Origin: Lachnospiraceae bacterium
GTDB taxonomy: Bacteria; Bacillota; Clostridia; Lachnospirales; Lachnospiraceae
DNA: 45,967 nt
Direction of reading: 5' to 3'
Assembly: GCA_028692975.1 (NCBI GenBank)
Contig: JAQUWF010000015.1
Location: 1 to 45,967, forward strand
Shown piece by piece: positions 13,950-41,573 of the stretch. The translations under genes were made by a program, and so were the position numbers. How positions within the stretch are numbered: the stretch's first letter is position 1; the number at the start of each line of letters is the position of its first letter. Under the pieces are notes generated by a model. The model had not been told where the DNA came from. It ran no database searches and worked only from the letters and a program-made list of their open reading frames with translations.

Positions 13950-13951
13950 TT

Positions 13952-14935: not shown

Positions 14936-14942
14936 CCTCCAA

Positions 14943-18703: not shown

Positions 18704-19870
18704 CTAGTCGTACAGGTTCTGTGCGATTTCTTCGCTTTCCATGTTTTCAGCTGTATACCACTGGCATCCTGTATCCTGATCAGAAACAGTTTTGCCTGCA
18801 GCAGCGTCAGCTAATGTCTGGATAAGAGCTTCACCCATAGCTACAGGAGCCTGAGTAATAGCACCAAGGAAAGTTCCGTTTGCTACAGCAGATTTGATAA
18901 CTTCACCAGAGTCAAATGCAACACCGATAACTTTGCCTTCGCCTGATCCAAATTTCTGAAGAGTTTCGTTAGCACTTACCATAGCTTCGCCTGAATGCTG
19001 GTTAGATCCGTAGATAGCGATTGTATCAGCTTTGTTTAACAGAGTTTCGCAGTCTGTCTTAGAAAGAGATGCATCAACCTGTGCAGGTACAGCAACTTCG
19101 ATCACTACATTAGCGCCGTCTGTTTTTTCACATTTAGAATCGGTAACGAATTTGTCATTGCCTTCAACAGTAGCTGTTTTTCCATCAGCAACAACTAAAG
19201 AAGCCAGTTTGTCAATGAAACCTAAACCACGGTTTCCAACTGATTCAGAAGTAGCATCCTGAGAAAGAACGCCAACTCTTACTGGAGCGGTAGCGCTTGC
19301 AATGATGTCTTTGATTGCAGGGTAAAGATTTTCAGCTGCCAGTTCGCCTGCTGCATAGTTGTCTGTTGCAACGGTAGCAACGATAGCTCCGTCTGGAGCA
19401 CCTGGAACACCTGAGTCAAAACCAACGATCGGGATACCAGCAGACTGAGCTGCTGTGATGCCGTCCATACAAGCCTCTGTATCAAGTGCTGCAAGACCGA
19501 TACCAGCTGGGCTGTTGTTGATTGCACTGTTTAACATCTGAACCTGGTCAGCGATATCAGACTCTGTGTTTGGTCCAACAAAGTTGATTTTAACGCCAAG
19601 CTCTTTTGCTTTGTTTTCAGCGCCTTTTAAAACTGCCTGCCAATACTGATGCTGGAAACCTTTGGAAACAATCTCAAAGCTCATGTCGCCAGTTGCTGCG
19701 GCATCAGTTTTCTCTGTGTCTTCCGTTTTCTCTTCAGCAGGTGCCTCTGTCTTTTCCTCTGTTGTAGCTGCGTCATCTGTTTTTGTCTCAGTTGCGGTAT
19801 TTCCGCATCCAATCACCATAGCTGCTACCATAGTAACACTAAGTAATACACTTAACACTTTTTTCTTCAT
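18704..19870 (-). CDS. sugar ABC transporter substrate-binding lipoprotein
   Basis: A 388-residue lipoprotein with signal peptide and lipobox VIGC (Cys22), then an acidic Thr/Glu/Lys linker to about residue 65. The mature part is a Peripla_BP_4 domain (KGFQHQYWQAVLKGAENKAKELG, VGFDSGVPG, ATDNYAAG). It is the last gene of the permease-ATPase-permease-binding protein operon and ends at a strong terminator. It differs clearly from the lipoprotein at 5117, so the two transporters probably take different sugars. The ligand is not readable from the sequence. Confidence 0.88.
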   Translation of the reverse strand: MKKKVLSVLLSVTMVAAMVIGCGNTATETKTDDAATTEEKTEAPAEEKTEDTEKTDAAATGDMSFEIVSKGFQHQYWQAVLKGAENKAKELGVKINFVGPNTESDIADQVQMLNSAINNSPAGIGLAALDTEACMDGITAAQSAGIPIVGFDSGVPGAPDGAIVATVATDNYAAGELAAENLYPAIKDIIASATAPVRVGVLSQDATSESVGNRGLGFIDKLASLVVADGKTATVEGNDKFVTDSKCEKTDGANVVIEVAVPAQVDASLSKTDCETLLNKADTIAIYGSNQHSGEAMVSANETLQKFGSGEGKVIGVAFDSGEVIKSAVANGTFLGAITQAPVAMGEALIQTLADAAAGKTVSDQDTGCQWYTAENMESEEIAQNLYD

Positions 19871-19931: not shown

Positions 19932-20945
19932 TTATGCTCTTGCCAGTTTTTTGTTCTTGAATACATCAAGAGAGATTGCAAGAATCAGTACAAGTCCTGT
20001 GATGATCTGCTGCCAGTTTGCCTGCAGTCCGATGTTTGGAAGTCCGATATTCAGAAGGGACATGATCAAAACACCGAGCAGGGTACCAACTACGGTACCG
20101 GAACCACCGTTCATGGAAGTACCACCGATGATGGCTGCGCCGATGGCGTTCAACTCCAGTCCGGCTCCACTACCAGGAGCTACAGAGGAAGAAAGAACAC
20201 CTGCGTAAGCGATAGCTGCAAGTCCGGTAAAGAAACCAGAAATAACGTATGCCAGCCACTGCCATTTAACAACATTTACACCAGACAGTCTCAACGCTTC
20301 TTTGTTACTGCCGATAGCGATGATATAACGTCCCGGGCGGGTTTTGTTCAGCACAAGAGACATGATCACAACTGCCAGAACCAGGAACACAATACCAATC
20401 GGCAACAGTACACCGGAAGTATTGATCTTGAAGATCGTTCTGAACCATCCCTGTGGAGTCGATGAGGACGGCCATGCGATGGATAATCCACCGGTAAAGA
20501 TTGAGCCAAGTCCACGTGTAATCATCATGGTACACAGAGTTGCGATAAATGGCGGCAGGTTCAGTATAGCTACCAGAAATCCATTGAAGAATCCAAAGAT
20601 GATACCTGCAACGACACAGATCAGCATGCCGACTCCAACAGGCATTCCCAGTTTTACAATACAGAACGCACCCATCAGTGCATAGCAGATCATGCCGGTA
20701 CCGATGGATAAGTCAACACCGCCGGTGATCAGGCAGAAGGTAACGCCGATAGCCATAAAGCCGATATAGTAAGAACTATCCAGCAGACTGACCAGTGTGG
20801 TGTACTGTCTGAATGAGCTGCTCATTACAAAGAACACTACATATAACAAGATAACCGCTAATAAAACTACAATTTTTTGGGCACCAACTGCTTTTACGAT
20901 TGGATTGTTGGTAAAAGCATTCCCCTTTTTCTCTTTATTTTCCAT
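19932..20945 (-). CDS. CUT2 sugar ABC transporter permease
   Basis: A 337-residue RbsC-type permease with about ten hydrophobic helices, GGVDLSIGTGMICYA early on and the conserved loop GGTSMNGGSGTVVG. It lies 15 bp after the ATPase gene. Together with the permease at 22485 it should form a heterodimeric channel. Confidence 0.88.
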   Translation of the reverse strand: MENKEKKGNAFTNNPIVKAVGAQKIVVLLAVILLYVVFFVMSSSFRQYTTLVSLLDSSYYIGFMAIGVTFCLITGGVDLSIGTGMICYALMGAFCIVKLGMPVGVGMLICVVAGIIFGFFNGFLVAILNLPPFIATLCTMMITRGLGSIFTGGLSIAWPSSSTPQGWFRTIFKINTSGVLLPIGIVFLVLAVVIMSLVLNKTRPGRYIIAIGSNKEALRLSGVNVVKWQWLAYVISGFFTGLAAIAYAGVLSSSVAPGSGAGLELNAIGAAIIGGTSMNGGSGTVVGTLLGVLIMSLLNIGLPNIGLQANWQQIITGLVLILAISLDVFKNKKLARA

Positions 20946-20960
20946 CTCTTCATCTCCTCA

Positions 20961-22454
20961 TTAATCTCTGAGTGTTGCTGCATGCATAATGTTTTCCTGG
21001 GTTGCTTCCGCGATATCAATCTCGCCGGTCTTCTTACCTTCGCACATTACGACGATTCGATCACTCATTCGCAGTACTTCTGTCATTTCAGAAGAAATCA
21101 TGATAATCGATTTCCCTTCTGCTACCAGTTCATTCATCAAATGATAGATCTCACTCTTTGCACCTACATCGATTCCTCGGGTTGGTTCATCGAAGATCAG
21201 GATATCACAGTTTCTTACCAGCCATTTTGCAATAACTACCTTCTGCTGGTTACCACCGGACAGGTTAACCACTTCCGTATCTACGGTCGGTGTCTTCGTC
21301 TTTAATTCTTCTACATATCTCTGTGCTATCTGATTTTCTTTCTTTTTGTTAATGAAGAGTCCGCTTGTAAAGTTGTCAAGGTTTGCCATGGTAGAGTTTT
21401 CTGCTACGGTCTTCGCAACAACGATTCCGAATCGCTTTCTGTCCTCTGACAGATATCCGATACCGGCTTTTACTGCATCCATCGGAGTCTTGATATCTAC
21501 CTTTGTACCATTGATATAGATATCTCCGCCATCTTTCGGATCAGCTCCGAATAAGGCTCTTGCGGTCTCTGTTCTACCTGCTCCCATCAGTCCTGAGAAT
21601 CCGAGGATCTCACCTTTGTGAAGCTCGAAACTTACGTCTCGTACCATCTTGCCTGCATTGAGATGTTCTACCTTTAAGACTACCGGTGCATCCGGTGCCA
21701 CGTTGCTCTCTGTCTTCGGATCTTCGTAGATAACACGTCCAACCATCATGTTGATGATATCATCCTTAGTGGAATCCTTGGTAATCAGAGTGCCTACATA
21801 ACCGCCATCTCGCATAACTGTAACACGGTCTGTGATAACTTTGATCTCATCCATACGATGTGATATGTATACGATACCAAGTCCCTGGTCTCTCAGGTCA
21901 CGAATGATCTTGAATAATTCTTCGATCTCCGTCTCGGTCAGTGCTGCAGACGGCTCGTCAAAGATAATAACCTTCGCCTCATGGGAAATCGCTTTTGCGA
22001 TCTCACACATCTGCTGTTTACCTACGGTAAGGTCTCCCATCTTATCATTTGGATTGATATCGATGTTTAATTTCTGGAAGAGTTTTATTGCTTCTTTATT
22101 CATCTTGCTGTCATTGATCAGCTTACCGCTCATCATCTCACGGCCGATGAAAATATTCTGTGCCACGGTCAAGTGGTTCATCATATTTAATTCCTGATGT
22201 ACGATCACGATACCGGCAGCCTGTGCCTCTCTCGGATTTGTAAATGTTACCTGTTTTCCTTCATATGTAATTGATCCTTCATCCATGGAATAGATACCGG
22301 TCAGTACTTTCATCAAAGTTGATTTACCTGCACCGTTTTCTCCCATGAGTGCATGAACTTCGCCTTTGCGTATCTCCAGGTCTACATGATCCAATGCATG
22401 TACACCAGGGAAAGACTTATCAATACCTTTCATTGTTAAGATTACTTCACCCAT
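20961..22454 (-). CDS. CUT2 sugar ABC transporter ATPase (double cassette)
   Basis: A 497-residue protein with two cassettes. The N-terminal one has GENGAGKST (38-46), signature LTVGKQQ and Walker B IIFDEPS. The C-terminal one has GLMGAGRTE, signature LSGGNQQK and IFDEPTRG. It ends in ATQENIMHAATLRD. The same C-terminal pattern reappears as a relic upstream of the operon at 23496. It sits between the two permease genes, an unusual but known order for this class. Confidence 0.9.
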   Translation of the reverse strand: MGEVILTMKGIDKSFPGVHALDHVDLEIRKGEVHALMGENGAGKSTLMKVLTGIYSMDEGSITYEGKQVTFTNPREAQAAGIVIVHQELNMMNHLTVAQNIFIGREMMSGKLINDSKMNKEAIKLFQKLNIDINPNDKMGDLTVGKQQMCEIAKAISHEAKVIIFDEPSAALTETEIEELFKIIRDLRDQGLGIVYISHRMDEIKVITDRVTVMRDGGYVGTLITKDSTKDDIINMMVGRVIYEDPKTESNVAPDAPVVLKVEHLNAGKMVRDVSFELHKGEILGFSGLMGAGRTETARALFGADPKDGGDIYINGTKVDIKTPMDAVKAGIGYLSEDRKRFGIVVAKTVAENSTMANLDNFTSGLFINKKKENQIAQRYVEELKTKTPTVDTEVVNLSGGNQQKVVIAKWLVRNCDILIFDEPTRGIDVGAKSEIYHLMNELVAEGKSIIMISSEMTEVLRMSDRIVVMCEGKKTGEIDIAEATQENIMHAATLRD

Positions 22455-22484: not shown

Positions 22485-23483
22485 TTAATTTCTTCTCTTT
22501 CTGCTTCGTACATCGGCATATACTGCGATGATAACGATAATACCAGTGATCACATACTGCCAGTCTTTCTGGAATCCCATAGCCAGAATACCCTCCTGCA
22601 GCAATGAAATAATCATAACACCTATGAATGCCCCACCGATGGAAGCAAGTCCACCTGACATGGAAGTTCCGCCCATTACACAACTTGCAATCGCGTCGTT
22701 GTTATATGTATCACCAAGTCCCGGCTGAACCGTCGAGTAAGCACCTACGAATACGATGGCTGCGATTCCTGCTAAGGTACCACAGATTACGTATGCAAGA
22801 CATTCCCATTTTTTAACATTAACACCTGATAAACGAACTGCTTCTTTGTTGCTTCCTAAACATAAGATATAACGTCCAGCCTTTGTCTTATTCAGGATCA
22901 TGGAGCAGATAATTGCAACAATGATCAGGAAGATCAGACCGGTTGGAATGGTAACGCCACCGACTGTGACTTTTACCAGACTTCTATACCAGCCATCGTC
23001 TGCAGTTGCCTGCGGCCAGCTGACTGACTGTGTCTTTGTGAATACGGAACCGATACCTTTGGAAAGCATCATACTTGCCATGGAAGAAATGAAGGACGGC
23101 AGTCCCATATAAGCAACCATGAATCCGTTTAACATACCGAAGATAACGCCGACTGCTACGCAGATCAGCAGACATAAGATAACAGGTAAACCTGATTTGG
23201 TCAATAACTGACCACCGACCAGTGCTGCACAGAACATTACTGTACCAATAGAAAAGTCGATACCGCCTGTGGCAATAACAAAGGTTACACCCAATGCCAG
23301 AAATCCAAGGAAATATGAATAATTCAATAAACTTAAGATTCTCTGATAATTAATAAACGATGCCTTGCCCATGATGGAACATACCAGTGCAAATGCAAAG
23401 TACATGAGTATCAGTACCCCGATCAGCACGACTCTGTTAAATCCAATTTTTTTAATGATTTTGTTGTTTTTAAAATTTTCCAC
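22485..23483 (-). CDS. CUT2 sugar ABC transporter permease
   Basis: A 332-residue RbsC-type permease, first intact gene of the operon, with GGIDFSIGTVMFCAA and the loop GGTSMSGGLASIGG. The start is GTG, supported by AGGAGG 8 bases upstream. That ribosome binding site overlaps the stop codon of a relic ATPase tail, so the gene once followed another ATPase gene directly. Confidence 0.87.
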   Translation of the reverse strand: MENFKNNKIIKKIGFNRVVLIGVLILMYFAFALVCSIMGKASFINYQRILSLLNYSYFLGFLALGVTFVIATGGIDFSIGTVMFCAALVGGQLLTKSGLPVILCLLICVAVGVIFGMLNGFMVAYMGLPSFISSMASMMLSKGIGSVFTKTQSVSWPQATADDGWYRSLVKVTVGGVTIPTGLIFLIIVAIICSMILNKTKAGRYILCLGSNKEAVRLSGVNVKKWECLAYVICGTLAGIAAIVFVGAYSTVQPGLGDTYNNDAIASCVMGGTSMSGGLASIGGAFIGVMIISLLQEGILAMGFQKDWQYVITGIIVIIAVYADVRSRKRRN

Positions 23484-23727: not shown

Positions 23728-24729
23728 TTACTGTTGTTCGCCCACAAATGGGAAAAGAAGTTTCTGATTTTCTTCCGTATATATGTTGTTCATAGTGATC
23801 AGTTTGGAACCAGAATTCAGGAATTCATCTACCTGTTCTCCATTCAGAAGCTTCGCAGTCTGTTCCACACCCAGATAGCCCATGTTAAATGACTTCTGGA
23901 TAACAATCCCCTTGAATACGCCTTCTTCCATCAGTTGTATTTCTTCCAGTGAGCTGTCAAATCCTACCACAGTCACCTTATTCTTCAATCCAAGATCCTT
24001 AATAGCCCTGGCCGCACCTACTGCGGAATATTCGTTCAGGCCGACTATTACATTCATATGTGGATGCTTTCTGATCAGATCCACGGTAAGATCATATGCC
24101 TTGCCAAAGGCCGAATCACAGAAAACCACTTCTTCTATATTCTCTGCATAGGCCCCCAGTCCGCTTCTCACGCCAGTCTCCCTGTCGATGGCTGTGGAAG
24201 CCCCTTTCACATGCCCGACAATACCAATGCTCGGCTCCTCAATGGGCGTGGACTCAATCAGTTCCTTTGCATAATCCCCCAGCTGCGTCCCCGTTTCTAT
24301 ATTATCTGTTGCCACAGCAGCATCTTCTATTTTCCTATCCGTCTGGGAATCCACATAGACCAGTTTGATATTGTTATCCTTCACCTTCTGGAGCATATCA
24401 CTGTTTTGTGTATAACTGGTGGGTGCAACGATAAGCGCGTCCGGCTTCTGATCAATGGCCCACTGGATCAATTCATTCTGCTGCTCATAGGCATCCTCGC
24501 TATCCGGTGCCGTAACCTGTAACTGCAGATTATTTTCCTCTGCAGCCATCTTTGCCCCCTCGATAAGCGAGGTCCAGAAATCATTACTCTCATCGACGAT
24601 CTTTGGGATCAGAATCACCTGATAGGATTTTTGTTCATCTAATTCTGCATTTTTGTAGATGGCGTAACTGCCAATCCCTAAACATATAAGGATGAGTGCA
24701 ACCAGAATCAGTCTCTTATTCGTTTTCAT
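23728..24729 (-). CDS. membrane-tethered sugar-binding sensor protein
   Basis: A 333-residue Peripla_BP_4 protein. Residues about 5-24 are a hydrophobic helix without a proper lipobox (the only Cys is in LILICLG) and without a clear cleavage site, so it probably stays anchored. The ligand domain begins at about residue 36 (QVILIPKIVDESNDFWTSLI). The gene overlaps the end of the kinase gene by 14 bp and lies apart from the transporter's own lipoprotein. The arrangement resembles the XylFII-LytS-YesN xylose sensor of Clostridium beijerinckii, where a tethered binding protein presents sugar to the kinase. Confidence 0.85.
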   Translation of the reverse strand: MKTNKRLILVALILICLGIGSYAIYKNAELDEQKSYQVILIPKIVDESNDFWTSLIEGAKMAAEENNLQLQVTAPDSEDAYEQQNELIQWAIDQKPDALIVAPTSYTQNSDMLQKVKDNNIKLVYVDSQTDRKIEDAAVATDNIETGTQLGDYAKELIESTPIEEPSIGIVGHVKGASTAIDRETGVRSGLGAYAENIEEVVFCDSAFGKAYDLTVDLIRKHPHMNVIVGLNEYSAVGAARAIKDLGLKNKVTVVGFDSSLEEIQLMEEGVFKGIVIQKSFNMGYLGVEQTAKLLNGEQVDEFLNSGSKLITMNNIYTEENQKLLFPFVGEQQ

Positions 24730-26530
24730 CTCCGTCGCCTCCTTTATTCAGGGGGATAATGATTGTGGCAGTGGTCCCCTCCAGTTCCCTGCTTTCATAA
24801 GAAATACCGTATTCTTCACCGTAATGCAGCTGAAGACGCTGCTGCACATTGTAAATGCCCACGCCATTTGATTTGTAGTTCACCTTGTGGTGGTCAAAAA
24901 TATGATCCAGCGTATCCTGATTCATACCGACCCCGTCATCATGGATGCGGATATAGATTTTCTGCGTATCCTTGGTAACGTTTATGGTGAGCATGCCCTT
25001 CGTCTCTTTGTATTTCAGTCCATGATAAATGGCATTTTCCACGATAGGCTGCAGCACCAGTTTGACGATAGGATTCCACTCCACCTCCGGGTCCACCTCG
25101 ATCTGGAATTCCAGTTTGTCCTTATAACGCATTTTCTGAATGGTCAGATAGCTCTTCACATAATCGATTTCCTGGCGGATTGGCACCAGTTCGTCCTCAT
25201 TGCTGATACTCTGCCGCAGGAGTCTTGCCAGGGAGGAGGTCATAAGCACGACTTCCTCATTTTTCTTTCCCTCGGCCATCCAGATAATGGAATCCAGGGT
25301 ATTATACAGGAAGTGTGGATTGATCTGGGACTGCAGTGCTTTCATCTCGCTCTTTCGCTTCTGCTCCTGCTCATACACATTCTGCTCCATAAGATTCTGT
25401 ATACGGTCAGTCATAAGGTTAAAGGATTTGCTCAGGCTTCCAATCTCATTGTTGGTGGTAATCGCCACGCTGGCCTTATCAAATTCCCCCTGCTCCACCT
25501 TTTCCATAGAGTCACGCAGGTCTTCCACCGGCTTCGTAATGCCCTTGGAAATAATGCTGGAAAGAATCACGACCGCCGCCAAAAGCACCAATGCTACCAG
25601 CACATACAGGAGCTGAGTCTGCTTGTTGTTTTTCAGCAACTCCGAATTATACGCCACACCGACTACGGTCCATCCGGTTTTTTCCGAGGTGGATATGGTA
25701 TATAATTTGCTGTCATTGTCATCTGAAACAATGAAATGATCGTTCTTGCACTCCAGCACCTCGTCCACCCGCTCCGTCTTCAGACCACCGTAAATCAACT
25801 GCTGCTGTGGATGATAGATCAGATTGCCATTTTCATCCAGAATATAAAGGTAGCCCTTATTTCCGATTTTATTATTGTTGCAGAGGTTACTGATCGCACT
25901 GTAATTCAGGTCAATAAAAAACAGCCCCTCCCGCACATTGGTTGTCTGATTGGTAATGACACGGCTCAGGGTAATGACCCATTTGTAACTGCTGGTGATG
26001 GCATTCTGTACATGGGAAGGGGACAGGCTGATACCCGTGTCCGATTCCATGGCCTTCTGATACCAGTCCTGGCTGGCAATATCCACATGAGAGTTCAGCG
26101 AAGTATAGCCATCATTCACCACATAATGATCCATATTACGTACCGCGGCGATATTGTAAATATCATCACGGCTGTCTATGATCGTGCGGAACTGGGATAT
26201 CACCCGTTCCTCCGCCGCCACCCGCTTCACACCGGAAGCCTCATCCTCAAAGAGAACAGTCTGTACGTCTTCATTATTTACCACAACAGAAGATATATTT
26301 TCCATGTAATCGATATACGAATCAATATCATAATTAACCTGCCCGATGATCTTTGAAGTATTGCTGACGGCATTGTCCATAACCGTATTTTCCGTATAAG
26401 TCAATGCAATAATCAAAAAAATAGATAGTGCCACCAGAATAATGAGTGTAAAGGAAAAAAGCATAGCGGTACGTATGCTTTTAAAACGGCCGATCACGGT
26501 CTTTCTCTGCTTTTTTTCCTTTTCCGACAT
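24716..26530 (-). CDS. YesM/LytS-type sensor histidine kinase
   Basis: A 604-residue kinase with transmembrane helices at about residues 22-44 and 303-326. The extracytoplasmic part looks like a double Cache domain (DWYQKAMESDTGISLSPSHV, GYLYILDENGNLIYHP). A HAMP segment, a His_kinase domain with His406 in QINPHFLYNT and a HATPase (VENAIYHGL, DDGVGM) follow. The start ATG touches the stop of the response regulator (TAAATG), and the gene overlaps the binding-protein gene. The three gene products therefore probably work as one sensor. Confidence 0.93.
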   Translation of the reverse strand: MSEKEKKQRKTVIGRFKSIRTAMLFSFTLIILVALSIFLIIALTYTENTVMDNAVSNTSKIIGQVNYDIDSYIDYMENISSVVVNNEDVQTVLFEDEASGVKRVAAEERVISQFRTIIDSRDDIYNIAAVRNMDHYVVNDGYTSLNSHVDIASQDWYQKAMESDTGISLSPSHVQNAITSSYKWVITLSRVITNQTTNVREGLFFIDLNYSAISNLCNNNKIGNKGYLYILDENGNLIYHPQQQLIYGGLKTERVDEVLECKNDHFIVSDDNDSKLYTISTSEKTGWTVVGVAYNSELLKNNKQTQLLYVLVALVLLAAVVILSSIISKGITKPVEDLRDSMEKVEQGEFDKASVAITTNNEIGSLSKSFNLMTDRIQNLMEQNVYEQEQKRKSEMKALQSQINPHFLYNTLDSIIWMAEGKKNEEVVLMTSSLARLLRQSISNEDELVPIRQEIDYVKSYLTIQKMRYKDKLEFQIEVDPEVEWNPIVKLVLQPIVENAIYHGLKYKETKGMLTINVTKDTQKIYIRIHDDGVGMNQDTLDHIFDHHKVNYKSNGVGIYNVQQRLQLHYGEEYGISYESRELEGTTATIIIPLNKGGDGDENE

Positions 26531-28150
26531 TTAGCGATGCTCCTTTGCGTATTCTGTTGGGCTTTTTCCAGTCATCTTTTTAAATGAAATGCTGAAATAG
26601 TGCGGATCGCTGAAGCCTACCCGCTCTGCTATCTCGTAATTTCGCAGTGTTGTCTTCTCAATGAGTTCCTTTGCCTTCTGCATGCGTGTGCGGATCAGCA
26701 CCTCCATGAATGTCTCACCGGTGGTCTCCTTGAATACACTGCTGAAATGGCTGGTACTGATACTCAGGTAATTACAGATGGTATTCAGACTCAGGTCCAC
26801 ATCCCCATAATGCTGCTGAATATAATCAAGGGCCAGCATGGCCTGTTTCTGTCCGCTGGACTGATTCAGATTCTCCATATCATAGATAACCTTCAGGGCA
26901 TAGTCCTTCACATATTCCATGGCTTCCCCACAGGATCTGCTATCGGCTATACGGTCAAAGACCTTATTCCGATCTGTTTTTAGATTTTTATCTCCCGCAT
27001 CGATGTATTTGATCACATCATACACTGCCCTGGTAATCTGGTGTAAATATAAAACCACACGGTCTTTGCTAAGTCTCGCTTCCCAGAAATCTTCTTCCAG
27101 ATGCTGGAAAAACGCTCTTGTCTTATCGGACTGTGCATTTTTCACACAGGTGCTCAGTGCAGTCGTATATTCTTCTATATTGATGTCACCGCCGATATTG
27201 ACCTCTTCCTCCCGGTCTATGAGCAGCCCCTCACCCGCTGTATAGCGGTATGCCAGCACCGACACTGCCGATTCGTAAGACGTATGCAGATCAGCAAGAT
27301 CCTGTACATAAGTGCCGATACCGATGGACACCTGGAATTTGACCGTCTCATAGATGCTGGACTGGATTTTCTCACATATTTTCCGAATCTGTCCTTTGAA
27401 TTCCTTTGGCTTATTGGTCTCAAACAACAGGAATGTTTTTCTGTTATCATCCCGGAATGCCATGCCGCACTGATAATTCTCAAGGATTTCGTTACTGATA
27501 TTTTCCACCACAAAGCTCATCCATTCGATGTCTTTTTTGTCCTCATCCGAAGCATGGTTCAAATCAGAAAAAGCATCCAGATCTACCACTGCCACACGAT
27601 AGTCCGTAGAATGGAGCGTGATGCCTACATCACCCAATTCCTGCAGGCAGATATTCAATTCCTGCGTGCCCTTGACCAGTTGTGTCAAGGATTTTGAGCG
27701 GATCATGGACTCATTCTTCCGGTAAGTCTCATAGGCCCTGGTCAGCCGGTCTATTTTTTTTACCTGATGCTCCCGCTGCTCCAGCTTCGTATGTAGTTTT
27801 TTCAATACTTCGGTCAGTTCCATAGCCGTGACCGGCTTTAGGATATACTCCGAAACCTTGTACTGAATAGCCTTTTTGGCATACTCGAAGTCACTGAAAC
27901 CGCTGAAAATAATAATTGCCGTGTCGGGATAATTATTATATAAGAACTTGCTTAGTTCCATCCCGTCCACATAAGGCATACCGATATCTGTAAGAACCAG
28001 ATCCACCGGTTCCTGTTCCACGTATTCTATGGCTTCCCTGCCGTTCTGGCAATCAGCCACCAATTCATAATCCAGGGCATTCCAGTCAATATTCTCACGA
28101 ATCGCATCCCTCACCAGGATCTCATCGTCCACTAACAATACTTTAAACAT
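26531..28150 (-). CDS. YesN-type response regulator with AraC output domain
   Basis: About 539 residues from the start I prefer (MFKVLLVDDE). The receiver has Asp8-Asp9, phosphorylated Asp55 in LTDIGMP and the SEYILKPV lysine segment. The C terminus is an AraC-type DNA-binding domain (GFSDPHYFSISFKKMTGKSPTEYA). A longer frame would start at 28186, but that ATG lies inside a TATAAT box. The chosen ATG has AGGTGA 4 bases upstream. Its likely targets are the second transporter operon and possibly the 28-35 kb operon. Confidence 0.9.
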   Translation of the reverse strand: MFKVLLVDDEILVRDAIRENIDWNALDYELVADCQNGREAIEYVEQEPVDLVLTDIGMPYVDGMELSKFLYNNYPDTAIIIFSGFSDFEYAKKAIQYKVSEYILKPVTAMELTEVLKKLHTKLEQREHQVKKIDRLTRAYETYRKNESMIRSKSLTQLVKGTQELNICLQELGDVGITLHSTDYRVAVVDLDAFSDLNHASDEDKKDIEWMSFVVENISNEILENYQCGMAFRDDNRKTFLLFETNKPKEFKGQIRKICEKIQSSIYETVKFQVSIGIGTYVQDLADLHTSYESAVSVLAYRYTAGEGLLIDREEEVNIGGDINIEEYTTALSTCVKNAQSDKTRAFFQHLEEDFWEARLSKDRVVLYLHQITRAVYDVIKYIDAGDKNLKTDRNKVFDRIADSRSCGEAMEYVKDYALKVIYDMENLNQSSGQKQAMLALDYIQQHYGDVDLSLNTICNYLSISTSHFSSVFKETTGETFMEVLIRTRMQKAKELIEKTTLRNYEIAERVGFSDPHYFSISFKKMTGKSPTEYAKEHR

Positions 28151-28184
28151 ACGCTCACCTACACCTGTTTTTTTCTCTTCACAC

Positions 28185-28213
28185 ATTATATCCGATTCTC
28201 CGGCATTTGTCTA
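28185..28213 (-). promoter_or_regulatory. promoter of the three-component sensor operon
   Basis: Minus strand: TAGACA (28213-28208), 17 bp, TATAAT (28190-28185). It settles the start of the response regulator at 28150 rather than 28186. Confidence 0.7.
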
Positions 28214-28258
28214 TTTCCATTGTGTGACATTCCAGACATTCAGATGCGCATTAAAATA

Positions 28259-28284
28259 CCGGGCACCTTTTGGAAAGTGCCCGG
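28259..28284 (-). terminator. terminator of the aldolase-to-reductase operon
   Basis: CCGGGCACTTT and AAGGTGCCCGG (minus strand) form an 11-bp stem with one G-U pair and a 4-base loop, followed by TATTTTAAT, 10 bp after the reductase stop. Confidence 0.88.
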
Positions 28285-28294
28285 CATAGTTGTT

Positions 28295-29302
28295 TTATTT
28301 TACGATAACTCCCTCTTCATCCCACAGATCATGCCAGTCTTTGGCATCTTCCCACAGGAATACCTGGCCTTTTACCAGTCTGTTGTTGCGATCCAGGGTA
28401 GCGATGGTATCCATCTCTTCCTGGGTGAGGGGATCCTCCAGCATACATTTCAGATTGCTGATGTAGTTCCTCTCGTGGATAGAAAATGGGATCGGAATCT
28501 GACCTCTCTGTCTTGCCCATTTCAGCGCGATAAGGGCCGGATGTACCCCATGTGCTTTAGCGATAGCCTGCATCTCCGGCATTTCCATATCGTTGACATC
28601 CTCTGGGCAGATATCCCGTTCCGGTCTCTTTGGTGAACCGATGGGCATGTAGCCTACTGGCTGAATGCCTTTTCCGGTCAGGTAATCAAACAACTCCTGC
28701 TGCTGGAAGGCCGGATGGAGTTCGAATTCACAAGCCGCCGGTTTGATTTTCAGAAGCGGAAGCACAGCCTCCAGTTTCGGGATGGTCATATTCGAGATAC
28801 CTATGGATTTGATCAGGCCCTTTTCCACCAGGTCTTCGCACTGTCTATATGTACGCAAAAATTCATCCACGCTGAATGGTCTGGAATCCGGGTTTCTGGA
28901 ATCTACGGAACAATGCGGTGCATGGTAGTTCGGGAATGGCCAGTGAATATAGAATAAATCGATATATCCACACTGCAGGTCTTCGATGCTCTTTTTGCAG
29001 GATTCCTCCACATGTTCATGCATATCATTCCATACTTTAGTCATGATATACAGGTCCTTACGTTCTACGATGCCCTCATCAAAAGCATCTTTGAATACTC
29101 TTCCGATCTGATCTTCATTGCCGTAGCAGGCTGCACAGTCGAACATGCGGTATCCGCAGCGGATAGCTCCTGCCACCGCTGCAGACACTTCATCCGGGGT
29201 AAAACGGTCCGAACCAAAGGTTCCCATTCCTACACATGGGATTTCTTCCCCTGTATACAATTTTACTTTTGGCACATCAGCCGGATTAATACATTCACTC
29301 AT
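28295..29302 (-). CDS. aldo/keto reductase
   Basis: A 335-residue NAD(P)H-dependent reductase of the AKR TIM-barrel family. The catalytic tetrad is complete: Asp55 and Tyr60 (FDCAACYGNE), Lys89 (IMTKVW) and His120 (FYIHWPFP). The conserved SIGISNM segment lies in the middle. Enzymes of this type reduce aldoses to alditols or oxidise them. It is the last gene of the operon, 14 bp after the PfkB kinase. Next to a hexitol-phosphate dehydrogenase and polyol-type kinase it may form or remove a hexitol (inference). Confidence 0.88.
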   Translation of the reverse strand: MSECINPADVPKVKLYTGEEIPCVGMGTFGSDRFTPDEVSAAVAGAIRCGYRMFDCAACYGNEDQIGRVFKDAFDEGIVERKDLYIMTKVWNDMHEHVEESCKKSIEDLQCGYIDLFYIHWPFPNYHAPHCSVDSRNPDSRPFSVDEFLRTYRQCEDLVEKGLIKSIGISNMTIPKLEAVLPLLKIKPAACEFELHPAFQQQELFDYLTGKGIQPVGYMPIGSPKRPERDICPEDVNDMEMPEMQAIAKAHGVHPALIALKWARQRGQIPIPFSIHERNYISNLKCMLEDPLTQEEMDTIATLDRNNRLVKGQVFLWEDAKDWHDLWDEEGVIVK

Positions 29303-29316
29303 ATCGCTATATCCTC

Positions 29317-30249
29317 CTATTTTAGTTTTATTATCTGGATTTGTGGTAACAAGTGTTCCATATCTTCTACTGCGAAGATCCCTGTTTCTTCCCGCAGGGC
29401 TGAAGCTGCCGAGATGGCACTGGCCATGCGCAGCGTTTCTTCTATAGAAAGATCCCTGGCTAATCCCATGGCAAAGCCACCGATCATGGAATCTCCACAG
29501 CCAACAGTATTGACAGCATCAATCTTTGGCACCATAGCCTGATACACACCCTCGTCGCAAACTACCAGGGAACCATCCGCACCAAGGGAAATAACAACCA
29601 CTGCCACGCCGCTGTCGTGAATCTGTTCCGCAGCCGCCAGCACATCTTCTCTTTTATCACACTGCTTGCCGGTCAGCATACGGATCTCGTCAATATTGGG
29701 CTTTATCAGGGTTGGCTTGGCCTGAATGCCCTGCACAAGATAGTCTCCGCTGGTATCCAGAATCACTTTTTTCTGTTCATCCTTTGCTATGGCAACCAGT
29801 TCTTCATATACGGATGTATCCAGGCCTTTTGGAACACTGCCGGACATGGCTACTACATCTGCCTTTTTCACCAGTTTTTTGAATTTTACTTTAAATCCCT
29901 CAAATTCATCCGGTGAAACGGTAAATCCCGGTTCCAGGATTTCAGTCTGTACACGGTTTTCTTCATCCCAGATATTCAGACAGGAACGACTTTCCGCCTC
30001 AAGGCGGTAGAAATCCGCCTCCACACCGAAAGGTTTCAACTGCTCCGCAATATAATCGCCTGCATGTCCGCCGATGAATCCGGTGGCCGTGACAGGTTCT
30101 CCTGCAACAGAAAGCACCTTGGAAACATTCAGTCCTTTTCCACCGGGACTATATACACATTCCGATACACGATTGACCTGTCCCACCTGGACATTTTTTA
30201 TCACATATCGTTTATCAACTGCTGCATTTAATGTAACCGTCAAAATCAT
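29317..30249 (-). CDS. 1-phosphofructokinase/tagatose-6-phosphate kinase (PfkB family)
   Basis: A 310-residue PfkB kinase of the FruK/LacC branch. The substrate motif GGKGLNVSKVL begins at residue 36. The catalytic Asp253 sits in VGCGDSMIGGF. It phosphorylates a ketose monophosphate to the bisphosphate. In this operon the substrate is probably D-tagatose 6-phosphate or fructose 1- or 6-phosphate from the GatD-like dehydrogenase, and the product would feed the class II aldolase. It lies 11 bp after the dehydrogenase gene. Confidence 0.87.
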   Translation of the reverse strand: MILTVTLNAAVDKRYVIKNVQVGQVNRVSECVYSPGGKGLNVSKVLSVAGEPVTATGFIGGHAGDYIAEQLKPFGVEADFYRLEAESRSCLNIWDEENRVQTEILEPGFTVSPDEFEGFKVKFKKLVKKADVVAMSGSVPKGLDTSVYEELVAIAKDEQKKVILDTSGDYLVQGIQAKPTLIKPNIDEIRMLTGKQCDKREDVLAAAEQIHDSGVAVVVISLGADGSLVVCDEGVYQAMVPKIDAVNTVGCGDSMIGGFAMGLARDLSIEETLRMASAISAASALREETGIFAVEDMEHLLPQIQIIKLK

Positions 30250-30260
30250 GGTATATTCTC

Positions 30261-31310
30261 CTATTTTTCACTGTCGATTAATATTTTCCCTTTTACTGTT
30301 CCCGGTGTCTTATACATCTCAAAGGCACTGGCAATCTCAGAGAGAGGCACCTTCTTAAAGATGAAGGATTCATCAATCTTTAATTCCCCGGTCTTGAAGT
30401 AATGTGCGGTCATATCCCACTCATGTCCCGGGAACGGTGCGCTGTAGGACATCCAGGAACCGGTCAGGGTGAATTCCTTCCGGTTGATGTTCTCCCACTC
30501 TTTTACGGAGAAGGTCATTTCTCTGGTGGGTGTGCCTACGAAGCATACCTGTGCTTTGTTTGCTGCCAGTTCGAAAGCCATTTTCATGGTAATGGTATTG
30601 CCTGCGGTCTCATATACGTAATCAAAACCGTTGCCGTCTGTAAGAGCCATGGCCTGATCCATGAAATCTTTATCCAGGGTATTGATGCCCCCTGTCGCTC
30701 CCAGATGTTTGCCAAGTTCCAGACGTTCCGGTGCGATATCAAATACGACTACCTGTTTTGCGCCGAAGATCTTTGCCCACTGCATAACAAGCAGTCCGAT
30801 GGTTCCGCCGCCCAGAATTGCCACATTTTTGCCACCCCGGTAGTTGACGCGCTCCAGACCGTGCAGTGCTACGGTTGCCGGCTCAAAAAGAGCACCCTGC
30901 TCGAAGGTAACTTCTTCTTCGAATTTGACTGCATTCTTTTCCGGTACCACTACATATTCTGCAAAACTTCCGAATTCACGGGAGCCGATAAAACTATAAT
31001 TCTTGCAGAGAGAATAGTTACCCTTCTGGCAGTCGTCACATTTCATACAAGGTACCAGAGGTACACCTGCCACCCGGTCTCCTGCCTGTAAGGTGGTCAC
31101 GCCCTCTCCAGTTTCTTCTACCACGCCTGAGAACTCATGTCCCAGCACATTGGGGAAGAAATGACACGCATCACCGTTTACGCGGGGAATATCCGATCCG
31201 CAGATACCGGTATATTTTACCTTGATCAGTACCTGACCGGCTTTTGGCTGCGGCTTCTCGATTTCTTCATAACGTATGTCTTCTCTTGCATGTACGACTC
31301 CTGCTCTCAT
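30261..31310 (-). CDS. GatD-like hexitol-phosphate dehydrogenase (zinc MDR)
   Basis: A 349-residue medium-chain dehydrogenase. The catalytic zinc site is Cys37, His58-Glu59 (GHE) and Glu143. The structural zinc is held by Cys88, Cys91, Cys94 and Cys102. A Rossmann motif GGGTIG lies near residue 167. It follows E. coli GatD (galactitol-1-phosphate 5-dehydrogenase) closely in landmarks such as GICGSDIPR, VPLVPCMKC, NYSFIGSREFGSFAEY and GSWMSYSAPFPG. It would oxidise galactitol 1-phosphate, or a similar hexitol phosphate, to the ketose phosphate. It overlaps the kinase gene by 4 bp. Confidence 0.87.
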   Translation of the reverse strand: MRAGVVHAREDIRYEEIEKPQPKAGQVLIKVKYTGICGSDIPRVNGDACHFFPNVLGHEFSGVVEETGEGVTTLQAGDRVAGVPLVPCMKCDDCQKGNYSLCKNYSFIGSREFGSFAEYVVVPEKNAVKFEEEVTFEQGALFEPATVALHGLERVNYRGGKNVAILGGGTIGLLVMQWAKIFGAKQVVVFDIAPERLELGKHLGATGGINTLDKDFMDQAMALTDGNGFDYVYETAGNTITMKMAFELAANKAQVCFVGTPTREMTFSVKEWENINRKEFTLTGSWMSYSAPFPGHEWDMTAHYFKTGELKIDESFIFKKVPLSEIASAFEMYKTPGTVKGKILIDSEK

Positions 31311-32833
31311 TGCTTAGCTCCTCCTGTTTTCTTCATAATACATTTTAATTGTTCATATAATTCCAGATAAGTCTGAAACTGCTTTTCGTATATCTTATGA
31401 TTTTCCATATCCGGCTCATGTTTTCTGGTCACCTTTACGGTAAGTTTCACTGCCTCTTCAAAGTCTTTATACATACCAACGCCTACCCCTGCCAGTATGA
31501 CCGCACCCAGGGTGGTCGCCGTGTCGGAAGACGGTACGACGATTGGCTTGCCGGTAATGTCGGATTTGATCTGTGTCCATAATCTGGAATTGGCCGAGCC
31601 GCCCATGGCACGAAGTTCTTTTACCTCTGCCCCAGTGGATTCTGCGATCTGAAGATTATGTTCCAGGGCATAAGCCACGCCTTCCATGGCAGACCGTATC
31701 ATATGGCCCTTGGTCTTGGAAAAATCCAGCCCATAGAAGACGCCTTTCGCATCCGGATCCCAGATAGGGGAGCGCTCCCCTGCCATATAGGGAAGGAATA
31801 CAAGGCCGTCACTGCCCGCCGATACGGCTTCCGCTTTATCATTGAACTGCTCCAGGGAAGATTTGCCCTTTTCGGCAGATGTGCTTCTCTCGTAATCGCC
31901 AAATTCCCGCTCCATCCAGCGCATGACTCCGCCGCCTCCGGTGGTCCCGCCCTGGAGCAGCCACCGATCCGGCACCACATGGTAGCCGAGGATCAGTCTT
32001 GGATCTGCCGCATAGGTATCCATACAGATGCTCATACCGCCTGCCTGACCACCCTGTTCCTGTGTCTCTCCCGGATATAAAACACCTGCCCCCAAAGTAC
32101 CGCAGGCCGCATCCAGACCACCGGCCACCACCGGCGTTCCTTCCGCCAGTCCGCTTTCCCTGGCCGCAAGGGCTGTGACCCTGCCAACTACCTGATGACA
32201 TGGAACCAGTTCGGGAAGGAACTGTCTTGGTATCCCAAGTTTTTCACACATTTCATCGTTCCAGGTGCCGTGCTGCATATCGAAACAATGCAAGCCATAT
32301 CCCTGGGACATATCCTGGGAAATCACACCGGTCAGCCGATAGGCGATGAAACTGTTGGACTGGAGGATTTTATGAATCTGGTCGTATATCTTTGGCATCT
32401 GTTCCTTATACCAGAGAATCTTTGCCGTAGTATAGGACGGCTGCAGCGAATTTCCAGCCAGTGCAAAGATTTGATCTGCACCAATTTCTTTGTTCAGACG
32501 CTCACAAATGTCTTCTGCTCTGGTGTCCATCCAGATAGGGGTATTGGTCAGCACTTTGCCATCCTGATCTATGGCGATGGCGGACCAGCTCTGTCCGTCG
32601 ATGCCAATCCCTGCGATATCAGCAGAATCTACCTGTCCTTTTTTCAAACAATCTTTGATAGCCTGACATACGGCACTCCACCATTCCTCCGGATTTTGTT
32701 CAGCCCAGCCCGGTTTGGGATAATACACCGGATAATCTCCGGTACCGCTTGCCACAACCGTGCCGTCCTTACGGAATATGGCTACCTTGCAGGCACTTGT
32801 TCCAATATCAATTCCTAATAAATATGGTTTCAT
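31307..32833 (-). CDS. FGGY-family carbohydrate kinase (xylulokinase-like, polyol kinase candidate)
   Basis: A 508-residue kinase with the phosphate motif DIGTSACK (residues 9-16) and the catalytic Asp241 in GGLDAACGTLG. It is xylulokinase-like overall, but the sugar-contact motif that reads GQMHG in xylulokinases is GQSWS here (80-84), so xylulose is unlikely. The stop overlaps the start of the GatD-like gene, which suggests consecutive reactions: hexitol to hexitol 1-phosphate, then oxidation. That substrate assignment is inference. Confidence 0.85.
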   Translation of the reverse strand: MKPYLLGIDIGTSACKVAIFRKDGTVVASGTGDYPVYYPKPGWAEQNPEEWWSAVCQAIKDCLKKGQVDSADIAGIGIDGQSWSAIAIDQDGKVLTNTPIWMDTRAEDICERLNKEIGADQIFALAGNSLQPSYTTAKILWYKEQMPKIYDQIHKILQSNSFIAYRLTGVISQDMSQGYGLHCFDMQHGTWNDEMCEKLGIPRQFLPELVPCHQVVGRVTALAARESGLAEGTPVVAGGLDAACGTLGAGVLYPGETQEQGGQAGGMSICMDTYAADPRLILGYHVVPDRWLLQGGTTGGGGVMRWMEREFGDYERSTSAEKGKSSLEQFNDKAEAVSAGSDGLVFLPYMAGERSPIWDPDAKGVFYGLDFSKTKGHMIRSAMEGVAYALEHNLQIAESTGAEVKELRAMGGSANSRLWTQIKSDITGKPIVVPSSDTATTLGAVILAGVGVGMYKDFEEAVKLTVKVTRKHEPDMENHKIYEKQFQTYLELYEQLKCIMKKTGGAKQ

Positions 32834-32860
32834 CTTTCACCTCGAGATTTTATTTTGCTC

Positions 32861-33868
32861 TTATAAGTCTCGTATCGATTTGCCTTCAACGATCTCCGTC
32901 TGTAATTTTACTGTTTTTTTTGCCTGCGCTTTTTCTTCTTCTGTGCCTTCCAGCCGCATAAGGATGATATCCGCCACATGTTTTGCTATCTCATCTGTAG
33001 GCTGAGTAACAATGGTAAGCTTGGGTCTGCATGCCCGGGCAAAAAGCAGATTATCGAATCCGATCACGGATAATTCTTCCGATATTTTGATTCCCAGTTC
33101 GTTGACACCGATCATGGCACCCATGGTCATTTCATAATTGACCACAAATACTGCCGTCACATCTGTGTCCCGAACCAGTTTTTCCAATCCTTCCACACCA
33201 CCCCGGATGGTATAATCTCCGTGATGGATCCAGGATTCTTCCCATGGAAGTCCTGCCGCTTCGTAAGCTGCCTTATAGCCTTTGTATCGCTCCTGGGCCG
33301 TGTATACATTTTCCGGACCGCCAAGCAGACCAATTTTGGTATGCCCTGCCCTCAGCAGCAGTTCTATGGCATGCTGCGCAGCCGCTTTATTATCCACCAG
33401 TACACTGTCTGCCTCCACACCCTGTATCTTACGGTCGATAAGCACTATGGGCTTATCTGCCTTCTGGAAGGGCTGCAGATGGGTGCCTGTGGGATCCACC
33501 GGCATATTGATGATGCCATCCGCCCGTTTCTTGTATAAGAAGTCCACCGCTTCTTTCTCCAGTTTCTCATCAGTACGGCAGTCACAAATGATGGTACCGT
33601 AGCCATGGCTGCGCAGAATATCTTCGATACCGGTGATGATCTCACTGCAGAAAATATTGTTCAATTCCGGGATGACCACACCGATGGTCTTTGTTCGGTT
33701 CGTCTTTAATCCTCTTGCTACCACATTTACTTCGTAATGCAGTTCTTCGATAGCAGCCTCGATCTTGACTCTGTTTTTCTCACGCACATTACCACCATTC
33801 AAATAAGAAGATATGGTGGCAAGTCCCAGACCTGTCTGTTTTGCTATATCTTTTATGGTCGCTGCCAT
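32861..33868 (-). CDS. LacI-family repressor of the hexitol operon
   Basis: A 335-residue LacI/GalR regulator. The N-terminal helix-turn-helix and hinge helix are at residues 1-60 (IKDIAKQTGLGLATISSYLN), followed by a Peripla_BP-like effector domain (GVVIPELNNIFCSEIITGIE). It is the second gene of the operon, 8 bp after the aldolase. A perfect operator of LacI type lies at the operon promoter (34,755), so it probably represses its own operon until a pathway sugar binds. Confidence 0.92.
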   Translation of the reverse strand: MAATIKDIAKQTGLGLATISSYLNGGNVREKNRVKIEAAIEELHYEVNVVARGLKTNRTKTIGVVIPELNNIFCSEIITGIEDILRSHGYGTIICDCRTDEKLEKEAVDFLYKKRADGIINMPVDPTGTHLQPFQKADKPIVLIDRKIQGVEADSVLVDNKAAAQHAIELLLRAGHTKIGLLGGPENVYTAQERYKGYKAAYEAAGLPWEESWIHHGDYTIRGGVEGLEKLVRDTDVTAVFVVNYEMTMGAMIGVNELGIKISEELSVIGFDNLLFARACRPKLTIVTQPTDEIAKHVADIILMRLEGTEEEKAQAKKTVKLQTEIVEGKSIRDL

Positions 33869-33876
33869 ATTGTCAC

Positions 33877-34728
33877 CTATTTTGCTTTGTGATCACAACC
33901 GCAAACTTTCATTCTTCCTTTTACCAACTCGGTTACTGCAGCCATACCGACTTTTCCGTATGCTTTCGGATCAAAGGTCTCTGGTTTTTCTGCATATAGT
34001 TTTTTCTCAGCATCTGTGTATGCCTTGCGCAGTTCTGTGGCGAAATTCACCTTGCAGATGCCGCGTTTTACACAGTCGGATACGTCCTGATCGGTGAGGC
34101 CGGATGCACCGTGAAGAACCAACGGAATGGATACGACTTTGCGAATCTCGGATAATCTTTCTTTATCTAATACAGGTGTTCCCACATAAAAGCCATGTGC
34201 AGTACCGATGGCTACAGCCAGTGACTGGATGCCCGTGCGCTCCACGAATTCTTTGGCTTCCATTGGATCTGTATTGGTATCTGCCTCTGCTTCCAGATCG
34301 TCTTCTTTTCCGCCGACTTTGCCAAGTTCTGCCTCAACTGGGATGTTATATTTCTTTGCAGTTTCTACTGTCTTTTTGCTGACTGCAATGTTGCCTTCGA
34401 AATCTTCATGAGAACCATCGATCATAACAGATGTGTACCCATTCTCCAGACACTGTACCGCCAGTTCGTAACTGCTGCCGTGATCCAGATGTAAACATAC
34501 CGGTACGGATGCTTTTTTTGCCTCTGCTGCAACGATGGCTGCATAGGTCTCTACCGTTCCGTATTTGACCGTAGATGGTGTAGTCTGAAGCATAACCGGG
34601 GCCTGCATCTCTTCTGCTGCGGCGATGACTGCTTTGACCATCTCCATATTCTCTACATTAAAAGCTCCTACGGCGTAGCCGCCTTTCTGTGCATCTAAAA
34701 GCATTTGTTCTGACGTTACTAATGGCAT
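33877..34728 (-). CDS. class II ketose-bisphosphate aldolase (GatY/FbaA type)
   Basis: A 283-residue zinc aldolase. The zinc ligands are His83 (LDHG), His178 (TAHG) and His206 (LHGASG). Asp82 is the catalytic acid and Glu134 lies in EAELGKVGG. It cleaves tagatose or fructose 1,6-bisphosphate to glyceraldehyde 3-phosphate and dihydroxyacetone phosphate. It is the first gene of the operon and has the promoter and operator. The GatD-like dehydrogenase and PfkB kinase in the same operon favour tagatose bisphosphate, but the sequence alone does not separate GatY from FbaA. Confidence 0.87.
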   Translation of the reverse strand: MPLVTSEQMLLDAQKGGYAVGAFNVENMEMVKAVIAAAEEMQAPVMLQTTPSTVKYGTVETYAAIVAAEAKKASVPVCLHLDHGSSYELAVQCLENGYTSVMIDGSHEDFEGNIAVSKKTVETAKKYNIPVEAELGKVGGKEDDLEAEADTNTDPMEAKEFVERTGIQSLAVAIGTAHGFYVGTPVLDKERLSEIRKVVSIPLVLHGASGLTDQDVSDCVKRGICKVNFATELRKAYTDAEKKLYAEKPETFDPKAYGKVGMAAVTELVKGRMKVCGCDHKAK

Positions 34729-34754: not shown

Positions 34755-34805
34755 CGAAACGTTTCGTTCTTCCATCATAGTAATCCTCTTCTGTCTTTTT
34801 GTCAA
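34755..34805 (-). promoter_or_regulatory. promoter and LacI operator of the hexitol operon
   Basis: Minus strand: TTGACA (34805-34800), 17 bp, TACTAT (34782-34777). The perfect palindrome CGAAACGTTTCG (34755-34766), with the central CG of LacI-family operators, falls a few bases after the expected transcription start, a position that blocks RNA polymerase. It also resembles a CcpA site. Confidence 0.88.
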
Positions 34806-38025: not shown

Positions 38026-38047
38026 AATTATCTACCTCCTATAATGT

Positions 38048-38078
38048 ATTATACATCATTACGCTGCGTCACAAGCAA
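38048..38078 (-). promoter_or_regulatory. MerR-type promoter with 19-bp spacer
   Basis: Minus strand: TTGCTT (38078-38073), 19 bp, TATAAT (38053-38048). Inside the spacer lies the dyad ACGCAGCGT (38069-38061). A 19-bp spacer with a central dyad is the hallmark of promoters untwisted by MerR activators. The gene downstream encodes one. Confidence 0.8.
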
Positions 38079-38098
38079 GACCTTTTTTCAAAAAAATT

Positions 38099-38122
38099 GC
38101 GGCAGAGATTTCTCCCTGCCGC
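38099..38122 (-). terminator. terminator of the interrupted membrane-protein gene
   Basis: GCGGCAGGG and CTCTGCCGC (minus strand) form a GC-rich stem followed by AATTTTTTT, about 34 bp after the gene's final stop. Confidence 0.8.
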
Positions 38123-38155
38123 CTTTAACATTGTGTTTTTACAATCGGAATTGTT

Positions 38156-38794: not shown

Positions 38795-38875
38795 ATATCT
38801 CCTCTACAACTTCCAGTTTTTTCCGTCATACGTCAATAAAAAAAGCACTTAACAAAACGCTTCATGGCGTGCGCA

Positions 38876-39047: not shown

Positions 39048-39068
39048 GTCTCCACCCCACACTATCCC

Positions 39069-41378: not shown

Positions 41379-41401
41379 CGGATACCTCCCTGACCTCTTA
41401 G

Positions 41402-41460: not shown

Positions 41461-41490
41461 CCCCTTTATTTATTTTCAGTACCTTTAAAG

Positions 41491-41547: not shown

Positions 41548-41573
41548 CTTTCTATGTTTCACATTGCCTTCTT

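Follow-up and report, generated by a model that had tools for sequence, protein, structure and literature searches.

A conserved six-gene operon of Lachnospiraceae predicted to use galactitol through an FGGY kinase in place of a phosphotransferase system

Layout of the operon

We analysed a stretch of 45,967 nucleotides (the window) from the assembly of a Lachnospiraceae bacterium (GCA_028692975.1, contig JAQUWF010000015.1), and in it a run of six minus-strand open reading frames (ORFs) that extends from position 34728 down to 28295. In the order of reading, these encode a class II aldolase, a LacI-family repressor, an FGGY carbohydrate kinase, a homologue of the galactitol-1-phosphate dehydrogenase GatD, a PfkB-family kinase and an aldo/keto reductase (AKR; Table 1). 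The intergenic gaps are 8, 27, -4, 11 and 14 bases, the negative value being an overlap of the FGGY and GatD ORFs at 31307-31310. An earlier reading of this DNA from its letters alone (hereafter the original prediction) had described six co-directional, tightly packed genes of these families, including the 4-base overlap, and had proposed that they form a kinase-based hexitol pathway free of a phosphotransferase system (PTS); the ORFs, the overlap and the family assignments all hold.

The aldolase exceeds the cut-off of TIGR00167 (304.7 bits, cut-off 215.6), just misses that of NF006626 (377.5, cut-off 384) and lies below those of the GatY models; no GatZ was seen in the window. The PfkB kinase scores above the cut-offs of TIGR03168 and of the 1-phosphofructokinase model TIGR03828 (321 bits, cut-off 292) and below those of the tagatose-6-phosphate kinase models. 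The top match of the GatD homologue in the PDB is galactitol-1-phosphate 5-dehydrogenase (4a2c, E = 8e-73), and that of the AKR is mannose-6-phosphate reductase (7s5f), followed by aldehyde and aldose reductases. The motifs LHLDHG, DGSH and HGASG are present in the aldolase and GCGDS in the PfkB kinase; the AKR has FDCAACY, MTK and IHWP, which indicate membership of the superfamily only and which we take to be its D-Y-K-H tetrad. The motifs in all five enzymes are presumably catalytic or metal-binding sites.

A promoter-like site and a 12-bp palindrome stand ahead of the six genes, a strong hairpin follows the AKR gene, and a new promoter-like site (11/12, against 0.5 in shuffles) lies upstream of the response regulator gene that comes next. 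On these grounds the six genes look like a separate unit, and they are probably transcribed together, apart from the downstream two-component and CUT2 genes. Two of 200 shuffles fold as well as the hairpin, and the terminator scan, by its own rule, listed none at this position. The palindrome CGAAACGTTTCG has a single exact copy in the 3.6-Mb assembly, and from its place just downstream of the -10 box it is likely the site at which LacI represses the operon.

Table 1. Features of the operon and its surroundings; substrates and regulatory roles are predicted
Feature	Position	Strand	Evidence
Class II ketose-bisphosphate aldolase, GatY/Fba type, 283 aa	33877..34728	-	TIGR00167, NF006626
LacI-family repressor, 335 aa	32861..33868	-	nearest models RbsR/CcpA, below their cut-offs
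FGGY carbohydrate kinase, predicted galactitol (hexitol) kinase, 508 aa	31307..32833	-	family score, GatD adjacency
GatD-type zinc medium-chain dehydrogenase/reductase (MDR), predicted galactitol-1-phosphate 5-dehydrogenase, 349 aa	30261..31310	-	PDB match, signature
PfkB-family kinase, 1-PFK/LacC type, predicted tagatose-6-phosphate kinase, 310 aa	29317..30249	-	TIGR03168, TIGR03828
AKR, predicted aldose reductase, 335 aa	28295..29302	-	PF00248, 168.3 bits
Promoter-like TTGACA-17-TACTAT of the six-gene operon	34777..34805	-	promoter scan, 2 in the stretch against 0.9 in shuffles, weak alone
Perfect 12-bp palindrome CGAAACGTTTCG, predicted LacI operator	34755..34766	.	10 bases downstream of the -10 hexamer
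Strong hairpin after AKR, possible terminator without a long T run	28256..28287	-	-24.1 kcal/mol, z -3.25
FucU-type sugar mutarotase, 146 aa	34932..35372	+	PF05025, 153.7 bits
AraC-type response regulator	26531..28186	-	PF00072, PF12833
Sensor histidine kinase	24716..26530	-	PF06580, dCache_1
Periplasmic-binding-protein-like protein beside sensor	23728..24729	-	RbsB model 76.8 bits, below cut-off
CUT2 permease	22485..23483	-	family score
CUT2 ATPase	20961..22454	-	family score
CUT2 permease	19932..20945	-	PF02653, 142.9 bits
CUT2 sugar-binding protein	18704..19870	-	PF13407; top PDB match 4kqc
Rhamnulokinase-type FGGY kinase	17040..18440	-	TIGR02627, 532.3 bits, cut-off 527.95
Arabinose/fucose-isomerase-like protein	15603..17021	-	weak family scores; some relatives named arabinose isomerase

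Conservation of the gene set

Species genomes were scanned with five aligned FGGY kinases as the query; the best 80 of 562 relatives include many from Lachnospiraceae, the last dozen or so of these 80 being 36 to 40% identical. Searches with GatD found matches in 50 of 392 genomes of the order (E = 1e-90) and in 26 of 398 of the phylum (E = 1e-80). Among 159 annotated stretches (loci, numbered with an L below), 123 carried both FGGY and GatD at an identity of at least 43%, and 118 of these were distinct after five duplicates had been removed. Gene presence was counted within 8 kb of GatD, and all counts are minima; many loci are cut by contig ends.

We found that FGGY lies directly upstream of GatD in 107 of the 118 distinct loci. 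An aldolase is present in 82, GatZ in 21 and either of the two in 97; PfkB occurs in 67, AKR in 83, LacI in 66, FucU in 38, a standard L-fucose isomerase in 12 and the PTS component EIIC-GAT in two. The search for the same set elsewhere, which the original prediction had suggested, found it conserved: all six genes are kept in 41 of the 118 loci, window included, and thus the set is more than a chance association. In another phylum, a Fusobacteria plasmid carries FGGY, AKR, GatD, GatY, PfkB, FucU and an aldose epimerase in one run, near sulfatases.

The palindrome is also found at the operon heads of relatives that bear lacI. A match of at least 11/12 within 7 kb of GatD was present in 59 of the 66 distinct loci with LacI and in 10 of the 52 without (P = 2.9e-15 by Fisher's exact test, a value inflated by kinship among loci). 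The original prediction had set the six genes behind a single LacI-controlled promoter.

Order of kinase and dehydrogenase, and relation to known pathways

We consider it probable that the six genes encode a pathway for galactitol that needs no PTS and that relies on the FGGY enzyme to phosphorylate this hexitol with ATP. An aldose would enter through the CUT2 transporter, be mutarotated by FucU and be reduced to galactitol inside the cell by the AKR; the galactitol-1-phosphate made by the FGGY enzyme would be oxidised by the GatD homologue, giving D-tagatose-6-phosphate, which the PfkB kinase and the class II aldolase would convert to triose phosphates. In relatives without PfkB, a general phosphofructokinase would have to serve.

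The dehydrogenase bears indirectly on the order of the two central steps. We compared 116 FGGY-linked GatDs and 11 PTS-linked GatDs with 19 other MDRs from the same loci, retaining alignment columns in which a residue was present in at least 85% of the first group, at least 70% of the second and at most 25% of the third. Eighteen columns passed this filter, including R43, R277 and the insert around PFPG.EW. R277, W286, G295, E297 and W298 are fixed in both GatD groups (116/116 and 11/11), R43 is present in 116/116 and 10/11, and each of these residues is absent or rare in the other MDRs (at most 3/19). PTS-linked GatDs must use an alditol phosphate, because the PTS delivers its alditol phosphorylated; the signature held in common with them argues against a dehydrogenase-first route, in which free galactitol would be oxidised to tagatose by the GatD homologue and the resulting ketose phosphorylated by the FGGY enzyme before PfkB and aldolase took over. 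Such a route would fit the FGGY kinase's passing of the xylulokinase cut-off, and a precedent for direct, PTS-free oxidation of galactitol is Sinorhizobium SmoS (PMC10433430). Given the signature and the two observations that follow, we hold it to be rather unlikely.

First, in a tree of 137 GatD rows (made by a quick method, with some long branches flagged, and with support from the Shimodaira-Hasegawa-like approximate likelihood ratio test, SH-aLRT), the GatD of a PTS operon, L022 (EIIA-EIIB-EIIC(GAT)-GatD-aldolase), nests in a 38-row set with that of the window (SH-aLRT 97). This set consists of L022, 36 FGGY-linked GatDs and L117, whose 4.4-kb contig carries no partner kinase. This nesting suggests that FGGY and PTS are interchangeable before one type of dehydrogenase. 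Secondly, GatD homologues about 60% identical to that of the window lie in teichoic-acid-type clusters in two genomes that belong to one genus (L140:2107-8570 and L141:3611-12914), beside an exporter, IspD/TarI-like cytidylyltransferases and glycerophosphotransferases (Glyphos_transf; three in L141), the NCBIfam scores of these neighbours being below equivalog cut-offs. An alditol phosphate is the expected product in such a setting, which lends the kinase-first order independent, if indirect, support; it is as if GatD there supplied hexitol phosphate to a wall polymer built from CDP-hexitol. Elsewhere, at L008 (G003:C39:46569-47606), there is a distant GatD-like ORF (34%) with one in-frame TGA.

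The window's own assembly, about 90% complete, contains no match to the EIIC-GAT family PF03611 at E up to 0.001. Taken together, these comparisons support a PTS-free, kinase-first hexitol route that would end in tagatose-type chemistry.

That the hexitol is galactitol is most likely, given the GatD signature, the nested PTS-linked relative and the GatZ partners. GatZ/KbaZ is the partner of tagatose-bisphosphate aldolase, and it was identified by BLAST in 21 of the 118 loci, where it replaces or joins the aldolase (the three that were scanned score 560 to 588 bits against PF08013). The GatD family as a whole is probably not confined to galactitol, as a relative about 40% identical occurs in Listeria, where its operon also contains PTS, rpe and rpiB genes; this would suit another hexitol or pentitol (altritol, sorbitol or arabitol) yielding a different ketose phosphate. 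Tagatose chemistry is indicated instead by the partners, GatZ and aldolase, and by the near relationship with GatDs of galactitol-type PTS operons, and we regard a different substrate as very unlikely.

Several observations weigh against the galactitol kinase pathway, and it needs to be interpreted cautiously. The FGGY kinase passes the cut-off of the xylulokinase model TIGR01312 XylB (405.5 bits, cut-off 380.25), and no sequence feature that we examined proves an alditol substrate. GQSWS, offered in the original prediction as a non-xylulokinase sugar motif, is weaker evidence than it was taken for there, being variable within the clade (GISWA in L025) and proof of no substrate; the kinase-based, PTS-free route proposed there has gained from comparison through the signature and the nesting of L022, whereas the xylulokinase score tells against it. 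The GatD homologue misses the cut-off of NF007642 (319.3 bits, cut-off 550), and the nearest NCBIfam models of the AKR are DkgB/DkgA (152.7, cut-off 327, missed) rather than aldose reductases. L022 is the sole FGGY-less PTS locus nested in the clade, and even this locus has a distant FGGY (31%), the neighbour of a fucose-isomerase-like gene. In L034 and L036 the FGGY kinase occurs together with a Gat-type PTS and would be redundant if their PTS already makes galactitol-1-phosphate; in both, a second EIIC-GAT without its own EIIA/EIIB lies directly before the FGGY kinase (L034:6943-10023, L036:7075-9990), and this lone component might be a plain facilitator. Neither aldolase nor GatZ was found within 8 kb in 21 of the 118 pairs, an unseen PTS gene is possible in the missing 10% or so of the assembly, and the organism's own genome has a galactokinase, so that D-galactose would not need this route.

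We predict that the operon is a variant of the galactitol/tagatose-6-phosphate pathway with a kinase instead of a PTS. It resembles the enterobacterial gat pathway in a dehydrogenase that appears to be of the GatD family, an apparently GatY-type aldolase and, in some relatives, GatZ (as in the gat operons of L195 and L196), but the FGGY kinase stands in the place of the PTS GatABC, and there are a separate PfkB kinase, LacI control, an AKR in most loci and a mutarotase in some. In the erythritol and glycerol kinase pathways, an FGGY kinase phosphorylates the alditol and a dehydrogenase then acts on the alditol phosphate; those alditols have three or four carbons, whereas the hexitol version proposed here would end in cleavage of tagatose-1,6-bisphosphate. 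An oxidoreductive galactose-galactitol-tagatose route has been engineered in yeast (PMC6430769). It reportedly reduces the sugar to galactitol and oxidises galactitol to tagatose, and in this the proposed pathway resembles it; the yeast route has no alditol phosphorylation and is not a bacterial operon. Rhizobial galactitol use through SmoS is likewise PTS-free, with uptake by an ATP-binding cassette (ABC) transporter, but there a short-chain dehydrogenase oxidises the free hexitol first (PMC10433430), whereas here phosphorylation would come before oxidation, and the dehydrogenase belongs to the zinc MDRs.

A literature search, in which subscription journals are thinly covered, returned no paper with the phrase 'galactitol kinase'. 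Nor did it find a described operon of this kind, which, with most subscription journals outside its coverage, is no proof of absence. The original prediction, too, had named no known pathway with this exact set; its dehydrogenase and aldolase families appear to be those of the enterobacterial gat pathway. If the proposal is true, the FGGY family gains a hexitol kinase, a gene set with a xylulokinase-scoring kinase in many Lachnospiraceae and other lineages is explained, and galactitol use is extended to bacteria without a galactitol PTS.

Entry of the sugar and neighbouring genes

Divergent from the aldolase gene, across an intergenic region common to both, lies a fucU gene that the original prediction had overlooked. 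Its product scores 125.8 bits against NF011949 (cut-off 141, missed) and is farther from the RbsD model (47.7, cut-off 93). The FucU mutarotase family works on the ring forms of aldoses, and FucU tracks the AKR: it is present in 37 of the 83 loci with AKR and in one of the 35 without (P = 2.4e-6 by Fisher's exact test, the loci being related and some of them cut), the lone exception, L129, having an L-fucose isomerase. This suggests that in AKR loci the entry compound is likely an aldose, mutarotated by FucU and reduced to galactitol; the idea that the reductase makes the hexitol from an aldose, put forward earlier as something it 'may even' do, can now be called likely for these loci. Aldose-epimerase genes also recur beside the operon genes (PF01263 in L023). 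Loci without AKR more likely take up galactitol itself.

The same genes could belong to two unrelated modules, in which external galactitol would be used by FGGY, GatD, PfkB and aldolase, while the AKR would be a lactaldehyde reductase and FucU would serve L-fucose use together with fucI and a rhamnulokinase-like kinase. A standard L-fucose isomerase is indeed found in 12 of the 118 loci, 11 of which also hold FucU; 35 FGGY-GatD loci have no AKR, and a rhamnulokinase and an isomerase-like gene lie downstream in the window. Set against these are 27 loci that have FucU and AKR and no standard L-fucose isomerase in the stretch seen, and the AKR gene's position inside the set, where it is flanked by GatD and GatZ in L069, L073 and L111 and, on the plasmid from Fusobacteria, by FGGY and GatD. 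The best solved relatives of the AKR, being sugar-phosphate, aldehyde and aldose reductases, also speak for a single pathway, and we judge two modules to be quite unlikely.

Galactitol is meso; D- and L-galactose are reduced to the same galactitol, so both would enter there. We put forward tentatively, as a possibility, that the galactitol kinase pathway uses L-galactose and switches handedness through meso galactitol, with D-galactose close behind as the entry aldose. FucU would mutarotate the L-sugar, the AKR would reduce it to galactitol, the kinase would phosphorylate the former C1 end, and oxidation at the old C5 would give D-tagatose-6-phosphate. If true, an L-sugar reaches D-sugar glycolysis and needs neither an isomerase nor an aldolase specific for L-sugars, and there is a testable route for galactose in gut bacteria, possibly for L-galactose from red algae and from the cell walls of plants.

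The local neighbours lean to L-galactose. They include the FucU family, the L-fucose isomerases of 12 loci, GH95 genes (flanked by AKR and the response regulator in L031, immediately ahead of the aldolase in L081, adjoining the aldolase on the other strand in L135), a GH29 gene directly after AKR in L146, and sulfatases, which occur near L025 as well as on the plasmid from Fusobacteria. GH95 includes an L-galactosidase (BACOVA_03438; PMC4491172), and L-galactose is a substrate, though a poorer one than L-fucose, of FucP and of mammalian L-fucose dehydrogenase (PMC13406643). Counting against L-galactose, the known activity of GH95 and GH29 is mostly that of fucosidases, and GH31, GH65 and GH127 are also near some loci.

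Two further lines of evidence on the aldose were set aside. Among 40 genomes with GatD and AKR, chosen by hand from annotated loci within the 392, both GH95 (23/40, odds ratio 4.3) and melibiase (32/40, odds ratio 5.7) are enriched, and genome co-occurrence therefore does not discriminate between D- and L-galactose; the other 10 of the 50 GatD-bearing genomes were dropped, no AKR having been seen beside GatD, and some of their loci are cut. The Thr/His position of GH95, considered as a marker of L-galactosidases, is Thr in L031, as in BACOVA_03438, His in L135 and neither in L081. It was dropped because one GH95 enzyme that has the Thr acts strictly on L-fucosides and the T395H exchange has no effect (PMC8245568). 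L-fucose as substrate of the whole route was rejected on chemical grounds, as L-fucitol lacks the second primary hydroxyl that a bisphosphate requires, and PfkB and aldolase would then have no role.

The original prediction had the sugar enter through the adjacent CUT2 transporter. The adjacency holds, but these genes form a separate predicted unit that ends in the rhamnulokinase and the arabinose/fucose-isomerase-like gene, and the cargo is therefore more likely to be an aldose than galactitol. The isomerase-like protein has 1,722 homologues at E <= 1e-20 (7,996 candidates scored) and weak matches to named families, among them the sulfoquinovose isomerase model (37 bits, cut-off 700). A response regulator also follows AKR in other loci (e.g. 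L030, L032, L035 and L040).

A second CUT2 transporter lies at window positions 4700-9849, beside an L-rhamnose-mutarotase gene (PF05336). Its homologues are found shortly ahead of the six-gene set in L031, L032 and L047, with a mutarotase of this kind between in the first two. Between the two sugar regions of the window, at 13512-15452, are molybdenum-cofactor genes (MoaA-like, MoCF_biosynth and a MOSC domain), and downstream of fucU, at 35700-42392, are two ABC-type gene sets (the transporters named by eye) with MerR and TetR regulators.

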